Positions 37,385 through 48,397 of a DNA stretch of 64,000 nt are shown piece after piece. The position numbers were made by a program, and so were the translations under genes. Source of the DNA: Bdellovibrio sp. 22V (lineage in GTDB: Bacteria > Bdellovibrionota > Bdellovibrionia > Bdellovibrionales > Bdellovibrionaceae); the NCBI RefSeq assembly GCF_030169785.1, contig NZ_CP125854.1:3162001-3226000 (forward strand), written 5' to 3'. Positions within the stretch are counted from its first letter, which is position 1, and each line of letters begins with the position of its first letter. A model generated the notes under the pieces. The model was given only the letters and a program-made list of their open reading frames with translations, did not search any database and was not told where the DNA came from.

Positions 37385-40300
37385 ATGGGTATCAACCTGA
37401 CGTTTGTGCAGATAACCATAATTTCTGCGTTTTCATTTCTTGTATCCGCCTGTTCGATGAACGCATCGTTAAGTCCTGCTATTTCCGAAAACCAAGTCTT
37501 TATGAAAGTCAGCGTTGAATCCGGAACTGCCGTGGTTCTGGAAGAAGGCATTGGCCATCAGATCACTTTGGCTATCGACACCCCGTCTGTTCCCGGTATT
37601 ACTTTGAAGCCGCAAACATTGAGCTGGGAAATTGAAGATGAAGACGGCGATTTTGAAGCCGCTTCGGGAACTCTTATTGTTCAGCCTGGAATTTCATCGG
37701 TGAGTTTTATCATTAAAGCTCTTCGCGATAAATATATCGAGAATGACGAAAGTTTTATTCTTAAGTTTGATGGCGATCGTTTTGCGAACTTAGACAGCAA
37801 TCACATTTCTTTCGTCGTTCAAGATAAAACTCAAAGAGCCAAACTAGTTCCCTCCATGGCGACGATGGAGTTTGGAGCTCGCCTTAAAGACACGGTGGCG
37901 GAAAAATCCGTGATCTTTACGAACAGTGGCGATGCGACAGCAGAAAACATCGCCTGGGGCGCCTTGACAGCTCCCTTCGCCTTCAAAGGGGGAACATTCC
38001 CCGGTACCGGCGGAAACTGCGGATTGACTCTTGAAGGTCACACGTCTTGTGCCGTTATTATTTCTTACTCGCCGACAGAAGTGAATTCACATGCCCAAGC
38101 TTTGACTTGGAACTACTCTAATCCCGATCAGGCAGACAGCGGCGCTTTGAACATTTCGGGTCTTAGCGTTGAAGTCGCTGCGACGTTAGGCGGTCTTCCC
38201 GGTAATCCTAGCAACGTGGAAGACCTGAACATCGCCGTTGCCGGTTTCAACGTGACACACTATAAATACAAAGTCGGCGTTAGTGGAACTTTGAACTGTT
38301 CTGATGGCTCCGGATACTCAGCTGAAATTCCTATCAGCACGGCGATTAGCGACAGCGTTCTTTCTTTAAGCAATCAAAATCTCAAGGTCTGCGTGGTGGG
38401 TAAAGACGCTAACGATTTGTGGCAACCCTATTCGGCGGCAACAAATTATTCTTGGACTTTCGATACGCTGAAACCTTCCGTTGTCGTTGCACAAAAAGCT
38501 GGTCAAAGTGACCCAACAAACTCTTTGCCGATTCGTTTCACATTGACCTTCAGTGAGCCTATCGCAGAAAGCACGCTGACAGACGCTGATATTAGTTTTG
38601 CGGGTTCCGCAGCGGTTAGTAATCACACGCTCACTAAAATTGACAGCACTCACTATGATCTTACAATTTCTGCGGTCGACAACAACGGTCTGGTTCAACC
38701 GGTTGTCAACGCGGACCGTTTTTCAGATTTAGCAGGAAATCTAAATACCGCGTCGACAAGCACGGATAATCAGGTGACTTATGACAACACGGCGCCATTG
38801 CTGCCGACGTCCCTTGCTTGGATTCAGACATCTCCGACGAAGGACTCTCCTGTAACTGCAAAATGGACGTTGTCGTCCTCAGGTGACATCGCTGAGCAAA
38901 ATATTCAATTTTATAAAGATGCGGCCTGTTTGACTCTTGAAGGCAGCGCCATCACCTTAAGTCCTGCAACCAACACCCGTACGTTCACGGGCGCAGACGG
39001 AGAAACCTATTCGTACATCGTGACAGTCATTGATACGTCCGGCAATACCTCCGCCTCAACATGTTCGAGCGCGCTTGTGATGGATCGAACCGCACCGGCG
39101 GTTTTGGCTTGGTCACCCGCAACAAGCATTCGTTCAAGTCTGCCCGCTTCCGTAACCGTGACTTTCAATGAAGACATGGCGGCAGCCTCCATGGAGAATA
39201 CAGGCAACTGGGCCGTCGCTTGTTCCGGAACCGGAGTCATTTCTGTCGCCGGTGTTTCCGCGAGCAGTGCGACGTCTGCGACGGTTAATTTGAATATTTC
39301 AACAGCGCCAAGCAATGCGGAAACTTGCACGATCACAGCGAAGAACACTTTAACCGATACAGCTGGAAATGCCTTGGCAGCAAGTTCGAGTGTGCAGTAT
39401 ACGCTCGATTTGCCGGGAAATATTGTTTCTGTGACATCTGCAAAAACGAACGGTGCTTATAAAGCCGCCGAAGTCATTCTTATTTCCGTGCAGTTTAGCG
39501 AAGTGGTTTCCGTCAATACTACGGGGGGTTCTCCAACACTGCTTTTAGAAACGGGCTCTACGGACCGCGCTGCAAGCTACACTGGCGGCAATGGCACCAC
39601 GACTTTAACTTTTTCATACACCGTACAACCTGGCGACAACTCGGCGGATCTTGATTATGAATCCGCGAATGCTTTGAGTCTGAACGGTGCTACAATCAAA
39701 GATAGCTTTGGCAGTGATATGGGTTTAACTCTGCCGACTCCGAGTGCGACAGGATCTTTGGCTGCGAATAAAAACCTTGTGATCGACACCCAAGCGCCAG
39801 AAAGCTTCGCAATTACCGGTATCACAGGCGGCACCGATGTCACTCAAGACGAATGGCTTACGAATGGCAGTGCCGCGACCCTTTCTTGGGGCGTCTCGAC
39901 AGGCAGCTCTTCATATAAGGTGGAAATCCGCAGCGGCGATGGCTCGGCTTCCGTATGTGCAGAACAAACTGTGGCTTCTTCTCCGTATACATTTACGGGT
40001 TGTACACTGACAAACGGAACGCAATACACGGCGCGAGTTTCCGCGCTCGACAGTGTTGGCAATACGACAACAGCGGATAATACGAACTTCCTTTTTACGG
40101 TGAACACCTCGGCGGTTATTGCGACGATCACAGGTCAACCGACTGGAAAATCCAACCAGACAACTCTTAACATTGATGTCGCGGGGGCCGACGTTCAGTC
40201 TTACCGCTACAAAGTTGGTGCTGCGGCGTCAACGAACTGTGCTGATGTGACAGGATATTCGGCAGACATTTCCTCTGCGACAAACATCACGGATTCTGTA

Positions 40301-43300
40301 AATGCCTTGGGCAATACAGACATCAAAGTGTGTGTTATCGGTAAAAACTCTGCCAGTGTGGAACAAGCTTTAACGTCGGCGACAAGCGCGACTTGGACAC
40401 AAGATTTGCTTGCGCCGACATTGACCATCAATCAAAAAGCCGGTCAAGCGGATCCCACTAACACACTTCCCATCGAGTTTACGGTCGTGTTTAGTGAAGC
40501 CATCAATCCGAGTTCCTTTACCACGTCTGATATCACGCACACAGGAACGGCTACTGGAATTACTTGGAATTTAACGACATCAGATAATATCACGTGGTCA
40601 CTGAAGGCGACCGCGATCACAGGCGCTGGGACTATCATCCCGTCCATCGCTCTTAACAAAATGACTGATGTCGCCGGTAATAACAATAGTGCCAGCACAA
40701 GCACGGACAATTCGGTTTCTTATGAAACCACCAAACCAAGTTTAACTATCAATCAAAAAGCAGGACAGGTCGATCCGGCCAATGCCCTTCCGATTCATTT
40801 CACTCTTGTTTTTTCAGAGGCCATCAATCCGTCAACTCTGACAGTGGCAGATATCTCGCAAGGCGGAACGGCCTCGGGCATTACGTGGGGTTTAACGACC
40901 ACAGATAACATCACTTGGACTCTTTCCGCATCGGCCGTCACAACCGCGGGTACTTTAATTCCTTCGATTACTGCCGGCAAAGTCAGCGATCCGGCAGGCA
41001 ATACAAATAACGCGTCGACGGCAACGGACAATAGCGTAACTTATGACATCACGGCTCCTGTGAATGCGACGTCGTTAGTTTGGCAGCAGGCTTCGCCAAC
41101 GAATACGACGTCACTTGTCGCGCAATGGAGCAAATCGACAAGCACGGACTTAGCATCACAAAAAGTTCGCTTCTATACTGGCGCAAGTTGCAATACCTAC
41201 ACGGGAACAGAAACTTCTGTTTCCAACGCAACGACTTCGGCGAATTTCACCGGCGCCAACGGCAATACTTATACATATGAAATCGTCTCGACGGATTCTG
41301 CCGGCAACACAAGTACGTCGGCGTGTTCCGCAGCTGTTGTTATCGACACAACCACCCCAACAATCACAAATGTGACTTCGAATAAAGCAAATGGATCATA
41401 CACTGTGGGTGAAGTTATCGACGTGCGGGTGACATTCTCTGAAAGTGTCGTGGTTACGGGTACGCCCCTTATCGCCTTAAATACGACACCGGCGCGTTCG
41501 GCTTCTTATGCTTCCGGCAGCGGCAGCAGTACGTTGGTTTTCAATTACACCGTACAGGCTACAGACACTGTTGCGGACTTGAATTACGTTGCCACAAATT
41601 CTTTGACGGTTGCCTCTGCATCTATCAAAGACAGTGCTTCAAACAACGCGACACTCACCTTGCCTGGTACAGCAGCGGCGGGTTCTCTGGGTACGAATAA
41701 AAACATTGTGATTGATACAACGGCGCCGAGTATTACCACGTTCACGGTGACAAACAGTTCTCCGACAAACAGCACTACATTCAACATCACTTCAGCTGTC
41801 AGTGGAACTCCGACGCATTATTGTATTATGCAAAATAATACGGCGGTGTCGGCATGTACGTGGACTGCCGGCGCGACTCTGCCCGCGACATTCACGGTCA
41901 CAACAGTGAATGAAGTTAAAACACTTTATGCGTGGGTGAAGGATGCGGCTGGAAATATCAGCGCGATGGCGAGTTCTGCTTCAATTACTTTTGACAATAC
42001 TCCGCCGACGGCGACTTTGTCAGGACAGCCTACGGGTTCGAGTGCGAAATACGTGATGAATATCGACGTGGGCGGAAGCGGCGTTGTCGGTTATAAATAT
42101 AAAATAGGTCCTTCCGCTTCGACCGACTGTACGGTGGCGACGGATTATTCGGCGAGTGAAATTTCCCAAGCCACGAATATAACGGACACTATTTCTTCTT
42201 ACGCCAATGGCAGTATCAAAGTTTGTGTTGTCGGCAAAGACTCTGCGGGCAATTGGCAGGCTTATGCTTCGGCGACGTCTGCAACATGGACGAAGAATTC
42301 TCCGAACATTCAATTCGCTGTGACAACGTCATCGGTGTCCGAGTATAACGATCCGTCACACACGATAGCTGTCAGTATCCCTGCGGCAACAGATGTCGCT
42401 GTTTCCGTAAGCTACGCTTACACGAATGGTTCCGCACCTTCAGCGACAATGGGTAATGACTATACGGCTGTAAACGGCAGTGTGACGATTGCCGCCGGAA
42501 GCACGTCCGTTAATATCGTTGTCCCTATTTTAGATAACAGCACGGAAGAGTATGACGAGACCTTCAAAATCACATTGAGCTCCCCTGTGGGCGCATATCT
42601 TGGAAGTAACACGGTTCATACCGTCACAATCACAGATGACGAACAACCGCCGTTGGTCACAATCCAAGACGTTTACGTTATCGAAGGAACATCGACAAGT
42701 TTGAGCGCGACCCTTTCCCACCCGACCGATAAGGGTCCGGTGTCTATTAATTGGACTCGTGACGTTTGTTCCGGCGTGGATTGTGCGACGGCAGGCACTG
42801 ATTATACAATGGCGGCAACTTCAGGCACGGCTTCTATCCCAAGCGGCAGCACCTCCGGCACATTCGGAAACGTGACAAGTATTGATAATTCCGTCGACGA
42901 ACTTTACAAACGCATTCCGATTAAAATCACAGGTATCACCGGCGGTACTTCTTATATTTCGAATGCGGATATCATTATTAACGATAACGATGTTCCTGCC
43001 GGAAAAGATGCTATCGCTGTTGTCACAGCAGACAACCACACGTGCTCTCTCACCAGTGCCGGCAAAGTTTACTGCTTTGGTTACAATGGGTCAGGACAGC
43101 TTGGTTTTGGAAACTACCTTTCAACGTCGACTCCGAAACAGGTTCCTTTAGCTTCAAATGCCGTCAGTATTGCGTCAGGCTATGTGGTGACTTGTGCGGT
43201 GTTGGATACAGGAGCGCTTTATTGCTGGGGTGGCGGCGGTCATAGCAACTACCCTGGTGCAGGACTATTGGGTATCGGCTCCACAGCTGCGAGATCCAGC

Positions 43301-45139
43301 CCTACCCAAGTTGTAGGAATGACTTCCGGTGTGACTGATGTTGGGGTTGGATACATCAACTCTTGCGCTCTGAAAGATGGCGGCATCTATTGCTGGGGTA
43401 CTAATTTCTATTCTGTATTAGGAGACCCTGCGAGCGTCTCCAGCACGACGGCTCCTGTTTCAATTCCAAGTCTGGCTTCCGGTGTTAGTAAACTCGCCAT
43501 GGGCTGGGTGCACGCTTGCGCTATTAAAGCCGGTGTTCTTTATTGCTGGGGCCAAAACTTAAACGGCGAAGCTGGTGTGGGTCACAAAAACCCCGTCCAT
43601 ACTCCAACAGCCGTTACAGGCATTGGCACTGTGGTAGATGCCTGGGCGGGACTTTACGGAACGTGTGCGAAGAACAGTGCCAACGATGTTTATTGCTGGG
43701 GTAATAATGGCGACTGGCAAATTGTCGACGGAACAAGCGCAGACGTGGCGACTCCGACATTGATGCCTGAGCTTTCAGGCGCGAGCGATATCTATTATGG
43801 CTATCATCTCTGTGCTGCCGTCAGCGGAGAACTCAAATGTAAAGGCCGTAACTATTATGGAGAAATGGGTATCAATCTGCCGACTGGAAGCGATATCAAT
43901 CCGCTCACAACTGTCGTTGGTGCCACGTCAGGAGTTACAAATGTGGCTGGCTCGCATGGCGGTCATACGTGCTTCATTAAATCAGGTCAGACTTATTGCA
44001 CTGGCAGCTCTGGTTTCGGGCAACTTGGAGAACAACAAATTCTACTGAGTACGGCTCACGTGCTCAGTCCCGATTACACAGGCGCTTCCTCCTTGGCTCT
44101 TCAAGATGAACACGGCTGCGGAATTTTCAGTGGCGCCTTAAAGTGTACGGGAGACAACTACTATAACAGAGTCGGGAATCTTCTCGTCGACCGTGTTTAC
44201 CTCACAACTACGCAAGTAAAAAACCTCACGTCAGGCATCACCAAAGCGCAATTATCTTCCGGCGGAGGATGCGCTCTTGCCGGCAGCACTTTAAACTGTT
44301 GGGGTAAAGCCCCCGTTCGTGGTTCAACGGCCACTTCGGGAAATCCCAATATACCGCTCGGATTAAACACAGGTGTGACCGACTTTGCAGTCAGTCAGTA
44401 TATGGACTTTGCCTGTGCGATTAATGCCGGAAAAATTTATTGCTGGGGTAATAACACGGACTTGTACAGTCTTTTTGACTTGGCTCCAGGGAACTACGTC
44501 AACCCTGTAGAAATCACTTCGGCGGGCTCTGACAACGTGAAGGTGACAATAGGTCGTTTGCATGGATGCGTGATTAAGACAGATAAAACAGTTTGGTGTA
44601 CAGGATATAATGGTTCTGGATCTCTGGGCTTAGGAGACACCGTGAATCGCACCGGTCTCGTTCAAGTTCCCGGCGTCACGAACGTTGATGAACTCATTAC
44701 GTCGAGCTACGGCACCTGCGCGCGCAGTGGTGCTTCCACGTTGAAGTGTTGGGGACAATACGCCGGGACCGGTTCGGCTAGCAATACTCTTTCACCTTTC
44801 GATGTCACAGGCTTTACGAACATCACCGCCATTCGTGGTGGATATCACAGGTTATGCCTGATTGATAACGGTGCTGCTTATTGCTGGGGCTTCAACCGTC
44901 AAGATCAATTCGGACGAAACGATTACCTCACGAATGATTATCACTTCGCTCCTGTTGCTTTAACGTCTCTCAATGCGCTGGGAGCTGTGACAGATATTGA
45001 GCCTCGAGGAGCCTATGGCCTATGCGGTAAAGTGGGAACAAACTGGTACTGCTCCGGCATGGATGTTTCCGGCCAATTGGGAACGGATAAAAAACCATTC
45101 CGCTTGGCCCCGATCTCTGTGGGACCTCTTGTCGATTAA
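37385..45139 (+). CDS. Giant surface lipoprotein with Calx-beta, Ig-like and RCC1 repeats
   Basis: A 2584-residue protein. A lipoprotein signal ends in LVSAC (cysteine 23) followed by serine, which favours the outer membrane. Residues ~37-157 are Calx-beta-like, ~158-235 match the choice-of-anchor/ASPM-SPD-2-Hydin type (FTNSGDATAENIAWG), and ~265-1640 are bacterial Ig-like and fibronectin-like repeats. These include a ~95-residue two-cysteine module occurring three times (about 265-360, 911-1010, 1541-1638) and three copies of a KAGQxDPxNxLPIxF module. Residues ~1640-1870 are two further Calx-beta domains. Residues ~1875-2584 are RCC1-type beta-propeller repeats (CALxxGxxYCWGxNxxGQLG). It is likely surface-exposed and adhesive; the ligand is unknown. 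Confidence 0.88.
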   Translation: MGINLTFVQITIISAFSFLVSACSMNASLSPAISENQVFMKVSVESGTAVVLEEGIGHQITLAIDTPSVPGITLKPQTLSWEIEDEDGDFEAASGTLIVQPGISSVSFIIKALRDKYIENDESFILKFDGDRFANLDSNHISFVVQDKTQRAKLVPSMATMEFGARLKDTVAEKSVIFTNSGDATAENIAWGALTAPFAFKGGTFPGTGGNCGLTLEGHTSCAVIISYSPTEVNSHAQALTWNYSNPDQADSGALNISGLSVEVAATLGGLPGNPSNVEDLNIAVAGFNVTHYKYKVGVSGTLNCSDGSGYSAEIPISTAISDSVLSLSNQNLKVCVVGKDANDLWQPYSAATNYSWTFDTLKPSVVVAQKAGQSDPTNSLPIRFTLTFSEPIAESTLTDADISFAGSAAVSNHTLTKIDSTHYDLTISAVDNNGLVQPVVNADRFSDLAGNLNTASTSTDNQVTYDNTAPLLPTSLAWIQTSPTKDSPVTAKWTLSSSGDIAEQNIQFYKDAACLTLEGSAITLSPATNTRTFTGADGETYSYIVTVIDTSGNTSASTCSSALVMDRTAPAVLAWSPATSIRSSLPASVTVTFNEDMAAASMENTGNWAVACSGTGVISVAGVSASSATSATVNLNISTAPSNAETCTITAKNTLTDTAGNALAASSSVQYTLDLPGNIVSVTSAKTNGAYKAAEVILISVQFSEVVSVNTTGGSPTLLLETGSTDRAASYTGGNGTTTLTFSYTVQPGDNSADLDYESANALSLNGATIKDSFGSDMGLTLPTPSATGSLAANKNLVIDTQAPESFAITGITGGTDVTQDEWLTNGSAATLSWGVSTGSSSYKVEIRSGDGSASVCAEQTVASSPYTFTGCTLTNGTQYTARVSALDSVGNTTTADNTNFLFTVNTSAVIATITGQPTGKSNQTTLNIDVAGADVQSYRYKVGAAASTNCADVTGYSADISSATNITDSVNALGNTDIKVCVIGKNSASVEQALTSATSATWTQDLLAPTLTINQKAGQADPTNTLPIEFTVVFSEAINPSSFTTSDITHTGTATGITWNLTTSDNITWSLKATAITGAGTIIPSIALNKMTDVAGNNNSASTSTDNSVSYETTKPSLTINQKAGQVDPANALPIHFTLVFSEAINPSTLTVADISQGGTASGITWGLTTTDNITWTLSASAVTTAGTLIPSITAGKVSDPAGNTNNASTATDNSVTYDITAPVNATSLVWQQASPTNTTSLVAQWSKSTSTDLASQKVRFYTGASCNTYTGTETSVSNATTSANFTGANGNTYTYEIVSTDSAGNTSTSACSAAVVIDTTTPTITNVTSNKANGSYTVGEVIDVRVTFSESVVVTGTPLIALNTTPARSASYASGSGSSTLVFNYTVQATDTVADLNYVATNSLTVASASIKDSASNNATLTLPGTAAAGSLGTNKNIVIDTTAPSITTFTVTNSSPTNSTTFNITSAVSGTPTHYCIMQNNTAVSACTWTAGATLPATFTVTTVNEVKTLYAWVKDAAGNISAMASSASITFDNTPPTATLSGQPTGSSAKYVMNIDVGGSGVVGYKYKIGPSASTDCTVATDYSASEISQATNITDTISSYANGSIKVCVVGKDSAGNWQAYASATSATWTKNSPNIQFAVTTSSVSEYNDPSHTIAVSIPAATDVAVSVSYAYTNGSAPSATMGNDYTAVNGSVTIAAGSTSVNIVVPILDNSTEEYDETFKITLSSPVGAYLGSNTVHTVTITDDEQPPLVTIQDVYVIEGTSTSLSATLSHPTDKGPVSINWTRDVCSGVDCATAGTDYTMAATSGTASIPSGSTSGTFGNVTSIDNSVDELYKRIPIKITGITGGTSYISNADIIINDNDVPAGKDAIAVVTADNHTCSLTSAGKVYCFGYNGSGQLGFGNYLSTSTPKQVPLASNAVSIASGYVVTCAVLDTGALYCWGGGGHSNYPGAGLLGIGSTAARSSPTQVVGMTSGVTDVGVGYINSCALKDGGIYCWGTNFYSVLGDPASVSSTTAPVSIPSLASGVSKLAMGWVHACAIKAGVLYCWGQNLNGEAGVGHKNPVHTPTAVTGIGTVVDAWAGLYGTCAKNSANDVYCWGNNGDWQIVDGTSADVATPTLMPELSGASDIYYGYHLCAAVSGELKCKGRNYYGEMGINLPTGSDINPLTTVVGATSGVTNVAGSHGGHTCFIKSGQTYCTGSSGFGQLGEQQILLSTAHVLSPDYTGASSLALQDEHGCGIFSGALKCTGDNYYNRVGNLLVDRVYLTTTQVKNLTSGITKAQLSSGGGCALAGSTLNCWGKAPVRGSTATSGNPNIPLGLNTGVTDFAVSQYMDFACAINAGKIYCWGNNTDLYSLFDLAPGNYVNPVEITSAGSDNVKVTIGRLHGCVIKTDKTVWCTGYNGSGSLGLGDTVNRTGLVQVPGVTNVDELITSSYGTCARSGASTLKCWGQYAGTGSASNTLSPFDVTGFTNITAIRGGYHRLCLIDNGAAYCWGFNRQDQFGRNDYLTNDYHFAPVALTSLNALGAVTDIEPRGAYGLCGKVGTNWYCSGMDVSGQLGTDKKPFRLAPISVGPLVD
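43000..45136 (+). repeat. RCC1-type repeat block of the giant lipoprotein
   Basis: About 14 degenerate repeats of roughly 50 codons, each with a C-A-x-x-x-G ... Y-C-W-G-x-N core (for example YCWGTNFYSVLGD, YCWGQNLNGEAG, YCWGNNTDLYS, YCWGFNRQDQFG). Two seven-bladed propellers would fit this number. Each blade carries a pair of cysteines, which is unusual for the eukaryotic cytoplasmic RCC1 proteins and would suit disulfide bonding outside the cell. Confidence 0.75.
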
Positions 45140-45930: not shown

Positions 45931-46518
45931 TCAGCTCTTCATAAACTTCATCAGATATTCATAATCTTGATGCTGATCAGCGCGCCTTAAAGCTTGAATG
46001 TAAGTGTCCCTCTTGTCACCCATCCGTGCTAAATCCGTCTGGCCCCACGAAAAACGAACTCCTTTATGATATTCAACCAAAAGATCCGCGGCCATTCGCG
46101 AAAAACGGCCATTGCCATTGGGAAAGGGATGAATCCAGACAAGACGATGATGAAAACGAGCGGCAATTTCGTCGAGAGAAAATGTTTGATGCTGAAGCCA
46201 ATACTTCACATCTCCCAGAAGAACCGCCAATTCATTTTGAATGATCGCCGGCGCGACGCCGATATTGGTTTGTCTTAAACGAAAGGTCCCTGCCCACTTC
46301 CATGTCTCTTCAAACATTTTTTTGTGCAACAGACAAAGACCCGAAACAGAAAGAAGATCCCTCTTTAAAGTTCGACTGGAAAAAGCCCACAGAAGCGCTC
46401 GTGCAATTCCTGCGGCTTCGAACTCATCCAGCTCCCCTTGCGTTGTCAGACCTGGAATAAGTCCTTGCAAAGTTTCATCGTCGAGAGGCGTTGCGCCCGG
46501 AGGACTTTGGATTTTCAC
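45931..46518 (-). CDS. Fic-domain protein (mobile mystery protein B)
   Basis: A 195-residue protein with an intact Fic core HPFPNGNGR (histidine 130) preceded by the alpha-helical FHHRLVWI. The family transfers AMP or other phosphate-containing groups to target hydroxyls. FRLRQTNIGVAP is the usual flap region. The layout and the partner match the mobile mystery protein B family, found next to an HTH protein called mobile mystery protein A. The start overlaps the end of that partner by 44 bases. I do not see a clear (S/T)xxxE(G/N) inhibitory motif in the Fic protein itself. Confidence 0.85.
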   Translation of the reverse strand: MKIQSPPGATPLDDETLQGLIPGLTTQGELDEFEAAGIARALLWAFSSRTLKRDLLSVSGLCLLHKKMFEETWKWAGTFRLRQTNIGVAPAIIQNELAVLLGDVKYWLQHQTFSLDEIAARFHHRLVWIHPFPNGNGRFSRMAADLLVEYHKGVRFSWGQTDLARMGDKRDTYIQALRRADQHQDYEYLMKFMKS

Positions 46519-46987
46519 GTTTTGTTCTCCATATTCTACGATCCTCTTTCAAAAGCATTTCATCTGCGAGAGTTTCCACCAACTGTTGTTGCGATTGGCG
46601 CGAGGTCTCTTGCGCTTCAAGTCCCATCGTATGTTCGGTGCTGCGAACGATCTCGCGCGCGGCTTTATAAGCTTGCTCTTCCAATGCTTTTTGCAAGCCC
46701 TCACCTTTGGGAACTAAAAAGTAAACCAACTCGCAGTTCAAGGCTTCCGCCGTTTGTTGCAAAGTGTGCAGCGTGAGCTTTCCCGCGACTTCATCTTTTT
46801 CGATGCGTTCCACACGCTGCTTAATCACACCCAAACGCTCGGCTAAATCCTGCATTGTCATACCCAAAGCCTGACGAATCTCTTTCACCCACCCCAAGCG
46901 TGGCGCTTTAATAGCGAAAGGAGCCGCGTTCTGTTTATAGAAGCGGTCCAACTGATGGCGACGAAGTTTTGCTGTTTTTGCACCCAC
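46475..46987 (-). CDS. HTH regulator (mobile mystery protein A), partner of Fic protein
   Basis: A 170-residue protein with an Xre-type helix-turn-helix at residues ~38-95 (GMTMQDLAERLGVIKQRVERIEKDE and a following LTLHTLQQTAEALNCELVYFLVP, each read in parts). The family always stands before a Fic-type partner. The basic N-terminus and helical C-terminus could serve dimerisation or antitoxin-like binding. It starts with GTG after an AAGGAG site. The upstream region holds three evenly spaced palindromes, so autoregulation is very likely. Confidence 0.85.
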   Translation of the reverse strand: MGAKTAKLRRHQLDRFYKQNAAPFAIKAPRLGWVKEIRQALGMTMQDLAERLGVIKQRVERIEKDEVAGKLTLHTLQQTAEALNCELVYFLVPKGEGLQKALEEQAYKAAREIVRSTEHTMGLEAQETSRQSQQQLVETLADEMLLKEDRRIWRTKRENPKSSGRNASRR

Positions 46988-47004
46988 GGGGAACTCCTTA
47001 TAAG

Positions 47005-47086
47005 TCTACTTATATGTAGATTTATAATACCATATCGTCTATATATAGATAGACCTTTAGATATAAATTATCTATGTATATATAGA
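47005..47086 (-). promoter_or_regulatory. Three 16-bp operator-like palindromes at 33-bp spacing upstream of the HTH-Fic operon
   Basis: Sites at 47005-47020, 47038-47053 and 47071-47086 each have arms TCTA(C/T) and (G/A)TAGA around a six-base centre (TCTACTTATATGTAGA, TCTATATATAGATAGA, TCTATGTATATATAGA). The start-to-start distance is 33 bases both times, about three helical turns, so bound dimers would lie on one face. A possible -10 element (TATTAT, read on the minus strand near 47024-47029) falls between the first two sites, consistent with repression by the HTH protein. Confidence 0.7.
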
Positions 47087-47222
47087 CCAAATATGTGGGT
47101 TTTTAAGCTCTTTCACTCTTGTGAGCTCGTTATTCAGCATAGAAAACGAGCCCAAAGCTTGTCAAAATAAATATGTAAATTATATGTAAATGATTAAAAA
47201 GGTCTAGGTCTTCGCTTCGGTT

Positions 47223-48320: not shown

Positions 48321-48397
48321 TGGTCTGCGCGACTGGATTTGAACCAGCGACCTCTTGCACCCCAAGCAAGTGCTCTACCAAGCTGAGCCACGCGCAG
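48321..48397 (-). tRNA. tRNA-Pro (anticodon GGG)
   Basis: The 77-base minus-strand sequence folds as a full cloverleaf. The 7-bp acceptor stem is CTGCGCG with CGCGCAG, the D arm contains AGCTTGGTAGA, the anticodon stem is CTTGC/GCAAG around the loop TTGGGGT (anticodon GGG), and the T loop is TTCAAAT. Discriminator A and an encoded CCA end (48321-48323) are present. The GGG anticodon reads CCC and CCT. Confidence 0.95.

Follow-up and report, generated by a model that had tools for sequence, protein, structure and literature searches.

The mobile mystery A/B gene pair in the 64,000-nucleotide stretch of Bdellovibrio sp. 22V DNA analysed here (the window) is probably an autoregulated, Fic toxin-antitoxin-like operon, in which one protein, MMA, would both bind a set of phased operators and plug the active site of its Fic-fold partner, MMB. 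The operator array, its conservation, the co-variation of its letters with the MMA recognition helix, the coupling of a C-terminal MMA motif to Fic and the Fic fold of MMB were established computationally. The proposed autoregulation by MMA is well supported by comparative evidence.

Both proteins score far above the NCBI curated cut-offs of their family models (122.6 bits for TIGR02612 and 124.4 bits for TIGR02613), which bears out the mobile mystery A/B identity given in a first-pass annotation of this DNA. The two genes form a unit on one strand, A upstream of B, with an overlap of 44 nt. The annotation had placed the pair and its operators at 46475-47086; the HTH gene and the array do lie inside this interval, but the Fic gene lies partly outside it. 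The features of the two genes are as follows.

46475..46987, minus strand: MMA, mobile mystery protein A, a Cro/C1-type HTH protein and proposed antitoxin/autorepressor (TIGR02612, 171.4 bits)
45931..46518, minus strand: MMB, mobile mystery protein B, a Fic-fold protein and proposed toxin (TIGR02613, 261.4 bits)
46994..46999, minus strand: ribosome-binding site AAGGAG, read directly, 6 nt before the GTG start (46987)
46814..46825, minus strand: MMA recognition-helix residues I55-K56-Q57-R58, putative specificity determinants (4 of the top 5 operator-associated protein columns)
46610..46630, minus strand: MMA T120-M-G-L-E124-A-Q126, where helix 98-123 ends; candidate motif for inhibition of Fic
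46096..46131, minus strand: Fic signature HPFPNGNGRFSR in MMB, with Asn at the usual Asp/Glu position

The AlphaFold2 model of MMA (pLDDT 88.7) contains HTH helices at residues 33-82 and a long helix at 98-123, with E124 directly after it, and the HTH fold is nearest to those of DdrO, HipB and HigA (weak E-values). The MMB model (pLDDT 92.0) has FICD, VbhT and EcFicT as its closest folds (E 1e-5 to 1e-7). MMB matches Pfam Fic at 51 bits and scores 22.5 bits against TIGR01550, below the cut-off of 38.65.

Three 16-bp palindromes of the form TCTAY-N6-RTAGA start, as had been claimed, at 47005, 47038 and 47071 in equal 33-base steps, and the HTH gene begins 18 bp past the last of them, just downstream of the array.

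47071..47086, minus strand: operator 1, promoter-distal; TCTATGTATATATAGA on the plus strand, exact match (z = 4.3 in its own locus)
47038..47053, minus strand: operator 2; TCTATATATAGATAGA on the plus strand, exact match (z = 4.7 in its own locus)
47005..47020, minus strand: operator 3, gene-proximal; TCTACTTATATGTAGA on the plus strand, exact match (z = 3.2 in its own locus)

At 10.5 bp per turn, 33 bp corresponds to about 3.14 turns, and the earlier statement that the sites share one face of the helix is correct to within about 50 degrees. The three exact matches compare with a mean of 0.13 in 100 dinucleotide shuffles of the window, none of which reached three sites. No other exact match occurs in the window, and matches with one mismatch elsewhere in it are at chance level (7 versus 3.6). 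An exact-pattern scan of the rest of the genome found five sites, all of them single; genome-wide, a reversed control pattern is the commoner one (11 versus 8 per strand). Because the other genomic sites are single and the control pattern is commoner, we regard the array as the sole real target cluster, and further MMA target arrays in the genome are excluded in that the exact-pattern scan found only single sites at chance level. RNA elements were also excluded, the only Rfam match being a tRNA-Pro at 48324-48397.

The 33-bp pitch recurs across the MMA family. MMA genes were drawn from the phylum of the window, plasmids, named genomes and viral contigs and then made non-redundant (n = 134); the named-genome sample is skewed to Pseudomonadota because a narrower alignment (A2) served as query, the A1 alignment being too diverse. 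Scanning lags of 14-60 bp, we found the best lag of the palindrome repeat at exactly 33 bp in 105/134 loci from several phyla. Dinucleotide shuffles of the same loci gave lag 33 in 2.0% of cases (2.7/134 expected), a comparison for which a binomial P value is not to be taken literally, as it overstates independence among related MMA sequences. A three-site test ranked lag 33 first among lags of 20-50 bp in 111/134 loci, with three sites in 85 of these, four in 18 and two in 8. Palindromicity averaged around the best palindrome of each locus, with no preset lag, peaks at +33, -33 and +66.

In a held-out set of 39 more distant MMA genes from the phylum of the window, 14 had a pitch of 33 bp and 11 one of 32 bp, and the pooled three-site test (n = 173) gave 33 in 127 loci, 32 in 16 and neither in 30. 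In a tree of 170 MMA proteins, each major split separates groups that both include pitch 33. The 32-bp pitch is concentrated in one divergent clade, yet requires about 12 changes on this tree. Members of the divergent 32-bp clade (L216, L219, L225, L228, L231-L233, L237 and L239) mostly carry motifs of the HMxLEDQ type. Since 32 bp is also found in the held-out set, the pooled test and the tree, the rule is one of about three helical turns, mostly exactly 33 bp and not absolute.

Several controls bear on the specificity of this pitch. It was found in only 4/201 regions upstream of neighbouring genes, in 0/30 regions before HigA loci of the same genomes and in 0/30 before HipB-type loci. The last group (TIGR03070; L261-L290, same genomes) has its own best lag at 40 bp, in 9/30 loci by pairs and 8/30 by three sites, so the scan is able to detect other pitches. 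Chance or AT-richness as the source of the array is excluded by the dinucleotide shuffles together with the neighbouring-gene, HigA and HipB controls. The recurrence of the array over several phyla speaks for a conserved on/off switch, apparently one not described so far.

Searching upstream of homologous pairs had been suggested as a check for arrays of the same letters, their absence there being named as grounds to reject the idea; the search came out in its favour. The 33-bp phased array proved to be family-wide, but the TCTAY/RTAGA letters are confined to the subfamily with an IKQR helix; they are subfamily-specific because other lineages keep the pitch with other letters. In the loci nearest to that of the window, all three TCTAY/RTAGA sites recur with the 33-bp step; palindromes of distant loci include TGGTGC..GCACCA, TAATAA..TTATTA, TGATC..GATCA, TGTATAC..GTATACA and TGCTCAT..ATGAGCA. 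Within a locus the letters at half-site positions 3-6 agree (0.86-0.88), but from one locus to another they vary; the centre TA|TA is common to loci. Differences between operators correlate with differences between MMA recognition helices (r = 0.49; partial r = 0.38 controlling for the C-terminal part of MMA; permutation p = 0.001). The variable MMA columns most associated with the operator letters correspond to residues 56, 58, 45, 55 and 57 of the protein in the window. Because the operator letters differ by lineage and track the recognition helix (residues 55-58), MMA is, on this strong but indirect evidence, very probably the binder of the phased operators.

Promoter-like elements fall among the operators. 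Family-wide, −35-like boxes are most frequent in the gap that precedes the penultimate operator, 38-41 bp ahead of where the last operator starts, whereas the peak of −10-like boxes is at the end of the penultimate operator. As these peaks interleave with the operators, the sites bracket and cover the predicted promoter of the operon across the family. Sigma-70 consensus promoter scoring is weak within the group of the window itself, where the following elements were noted.

47024..47032, minus strand: TGGTATTAT, a candidate −10 of the extended type, between operators 2 and 3 (consensus match only)
47136..47165, minus strand: TTGACA-N18-TATGCT, a candidate promoter upstream of the array (consensus match only)
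47171..47190, minus strand: AT-rich conserved element TTTACATATAATTTACATAT, with the core ATAATTTACATA invariant in nine loci

The nine closest loci keep a TATTAT/TATAAT-like element between operators 2 and 3, and nine close loci share a TTGAC box followed by a −10-like box. The element TTTACATATAATTTACATAT and TTGACA-N18-TATGCT (47136-47190), kept together in the nine close loci, may be a second promoter or the site of another regulator.

The very high AT content of the region and the second conserved element upstream would suit an explanation in which MMA does not bind the palindromes and they are instead sites of some other regulator or repetitive DNA rich in AT. We consider this highly improbable: lag 33 appears in only 2% of shuffles that preserve dinucleotides, the operator letters track the recognition helix above any other part of MMA, and a clade of MMA-like proteins (L210, L224, L238 and L241) that has no Fic partner and no M-x-L-E-x-Q motif has no phased array either.

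The proposed second role of MMA, inhibition of MMB, concerns its C-terminal motif. In class I Fic modules the antitoxin carries the motif (S/T)xxxE(G/N) (PMC10628234, PMC3667792); that of EcFicA, SRRLEG, lies at the C-terminal end of a helix and enters the active site of EcFicT (PMC5033356), where the second Arg in the Fic motif is touched by its Ser and Glu. Most MMA family members contain H-(S/T)-M-x-L-E-x-Q, and MMA motifs such as TMRLEN also fall at a helix end. The protein in the window has TMGLEA, in which the Ser/Thr and Glu positions match (S/T)xxxE(G/N) and Ala occupies the G/N place; among 122 relatives the residue after the motif Glu is Asn in 31 and Gly in 2. An inhibitory motif inside MMB itself was excluded, (S/T)xxxE(G/N) being absent from 118/122 MMB proteins, that of the window included.

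The motif is coupled to the presence of a Fic gene. M-x-(L-like)-E-x-Q occurs in all 154 sufficiently long MMAs that have a Fic neighbour; among the 13 MMAs of testable length without one, it is absent in 6 and kept in 7, and no Fic neighbour was found beside an MMA that lacks the motif. One MMA without an MMB neighbour, on a Vibrio casei plasmid (L071), adjoins parA/parB and keeps HMFLEMQ and a 32-bp array; this antitoxin may have been orphaned recently or put to another use.

The Ser/Thr with which the motif begins in most MMAs also fits a different relation between the two proteins, in which MMA is a substrate of MMB and Fic modification switches its DNA binding with no plug in the active site. 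A link between Fic modification and an HTH protein has been discussed (PMC10628234). We nevertheless think substrate status improbable, for some members of the family have His, Asn or a further residue type instead of the Ser/Thr, and the Met, Glu and Gln are fixed; a fixed Glu beside a variable Ser/Thr fits an inhibitory glutamate, not a modification site.

The Fic signature of MMB departs from the canonical one. Asn134 occupies the Asp/Glu place of HxFx(D/E)GNGRxxR and is invariant in 52 aligned MMB sequences; because of this Asn, AMP transfer by MMB is not to be assumed and we do not claim membership for it among the adenylylation-competent class I Fic proteins. In its features other than the Fic signature, MMA/MMB would work like a class I module.

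MMA is patchily distributed, being present in 14/23 relatives within the genus, and 239 plasmid records match MMA alone. The copy in the window is chromosomal and has a tyrosine-phosphatase-family gene and a DUF899 gene as neighbours; the pair stands beside the phosphatase gene in 5/18 genomes that have that gene, that of the window included. A phage origin was rejected, as no MMA match was found in the phage collection, yet relatives occur on 17 viral contigs. A tRNA-Pro (GGG) gene (48321-48397) lies near this patchily distributed Fic module, and beyond the phosphatase gene a 2584-aa ORF (37385-45139) has many repeated stretches and looks like the gene of a large surface or secreted protein.

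These patterns bear on whether MMB is a toxin at all. The palindromes could be ordinary autorepressor operators through which MMA tunes the dose of a housekeeping or regulatory Fic enzyme, or of a protein with other chemistry given its Asn. The replacement of Asp/Glu by Asn in all aligned MMB proteins, the chromosomal location of the copy in the window and the lack of any toxicity report in the literature searched favour such a role. We rate it as unlikely: the patchy occurrence in the genus (14/23), the abundance on plasmids (239 records) and the compact overlapping operon all resemble an addiction module, and the inhibitory-type motif next door is strictly tied to Fic.

We therefore return to the preferred reading, an autoregulated toxin-antitoxin-like operon, whose steps of binding, cooperativity, inhibition, toxicity and chemistry we infer. 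A Cro/C1-type HTH dimer of MMA would sit on each of the three 16-20 bp palindromes over the operon promoter, and occupancy of these sites, spaced 33 bp or about three helical turns apart, would repress transcription of both genes. E124 of the (S/T)-M-x-L-E-x-Q motif in the C-terminal helix of MMA would enter and block the MMB active site, as in class I Fic antitoxins. Neighbouring MMA dimers may touch across the three-turn gap, alone or via MMB, and this dimer-dimer contact would fix the pitch, leaving the letters free to co-evolve with the recognition helix. Loss or dilution of MMA would lead to derepression, and free MMB would then modify its target, probably by AMP transfer, and stop growth.

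More tentatively, the pitch and not the sequence may be conserved because a higher-order MMA complex, with C-terminal helices or MMB bridging the three turns, sets it. Occupancy would then read the MMA:MMB ratio, and the E124 region would couple inhibition to repression. If so, the pitch would be peculiar to each family of HTH antitoxins: 33 bp in MMA, 40 bp in HipB-type loci.

The pair shares features with several known systems. It resembles mobile mystery A/B as defined by TIGR02612 and TIGR02613 in that both proteins exceed the cut-offs, A precedes B and the genes overlap; those family models include no operator, specificity code or inhibition mechanism. The literature on mobile mystery A/B that we searched, mostly outside subscription journals, yielded no operators, toxicity, inhibition or function. 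With class I FicTA modules (VbhA/VbhT and EcFicA/EcFicT) it shares an antitoxin gene upstream, an inhibitory-type Glu motif at the end of an antitoxin helix with none in the Fic protein, and the presence of VbhT and EcFicT among the closest folds of MMB; it differs in that MMA is an HTH protein, predicted to bind DNA, with a phased operator array, that Ala follows the motif Glu in the MMA of the window, and that Asn replaces Asp/Glu in MMB.

As in type II toxin-antitoxin systems generally, three sites lie directly before the gene and over the predicted promoter. The likeness to the type II systems HipBA and HigBA, whose antitoxins are of the Cro/C1 HTH type, extends to the HTH fold (weak E-values), the autorepressor logic and repeated operators, but the toxin folds differ, the pitch is 40 bp in HipB-type loci and no HigA locus has a pitch of 33. 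The partner of MMA is a Fic-fold protein, unlike the HipA kinase of HipBA. Phd/Doc combines a DNA-binding antitoxin with a toxin of the Fic/Doc fold; Phd is not of the Cro/C1 HTH type, and Doc, whose motif is degenerate, is a kinase. MMA/MMB is likewise a pair of a predicted DNA-binding antitoxin and a Fic-fold partner, but MMB scores below the TIGR01550 cut-off and MMA is a Cro/C1-type HTH protein. We have not found described the combination proposed here from comparative data: a near-fixed three-turn pitch, free operator letters, a putative four-residue readout and an apparent HTH antitoxin with a Fic-inhibitory-type motif.

Mobile mystery A/B pairs are widespread, and the present analysis proposes for them a mechanism open to testing, in which inhibition can be probed at a single residue (E124), together with a precise operator code. 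This code relates MMA residues 55-58 to half-site positions 3-6 and is testable by a four-residue swap. That the pitch stays at 33 bp as the letters change suggests that a protein assembly is under selection, beyond DNA recognition, and the MMA family offers many natural repressor-operator pairs in which to study the evolution of HTH specificity.
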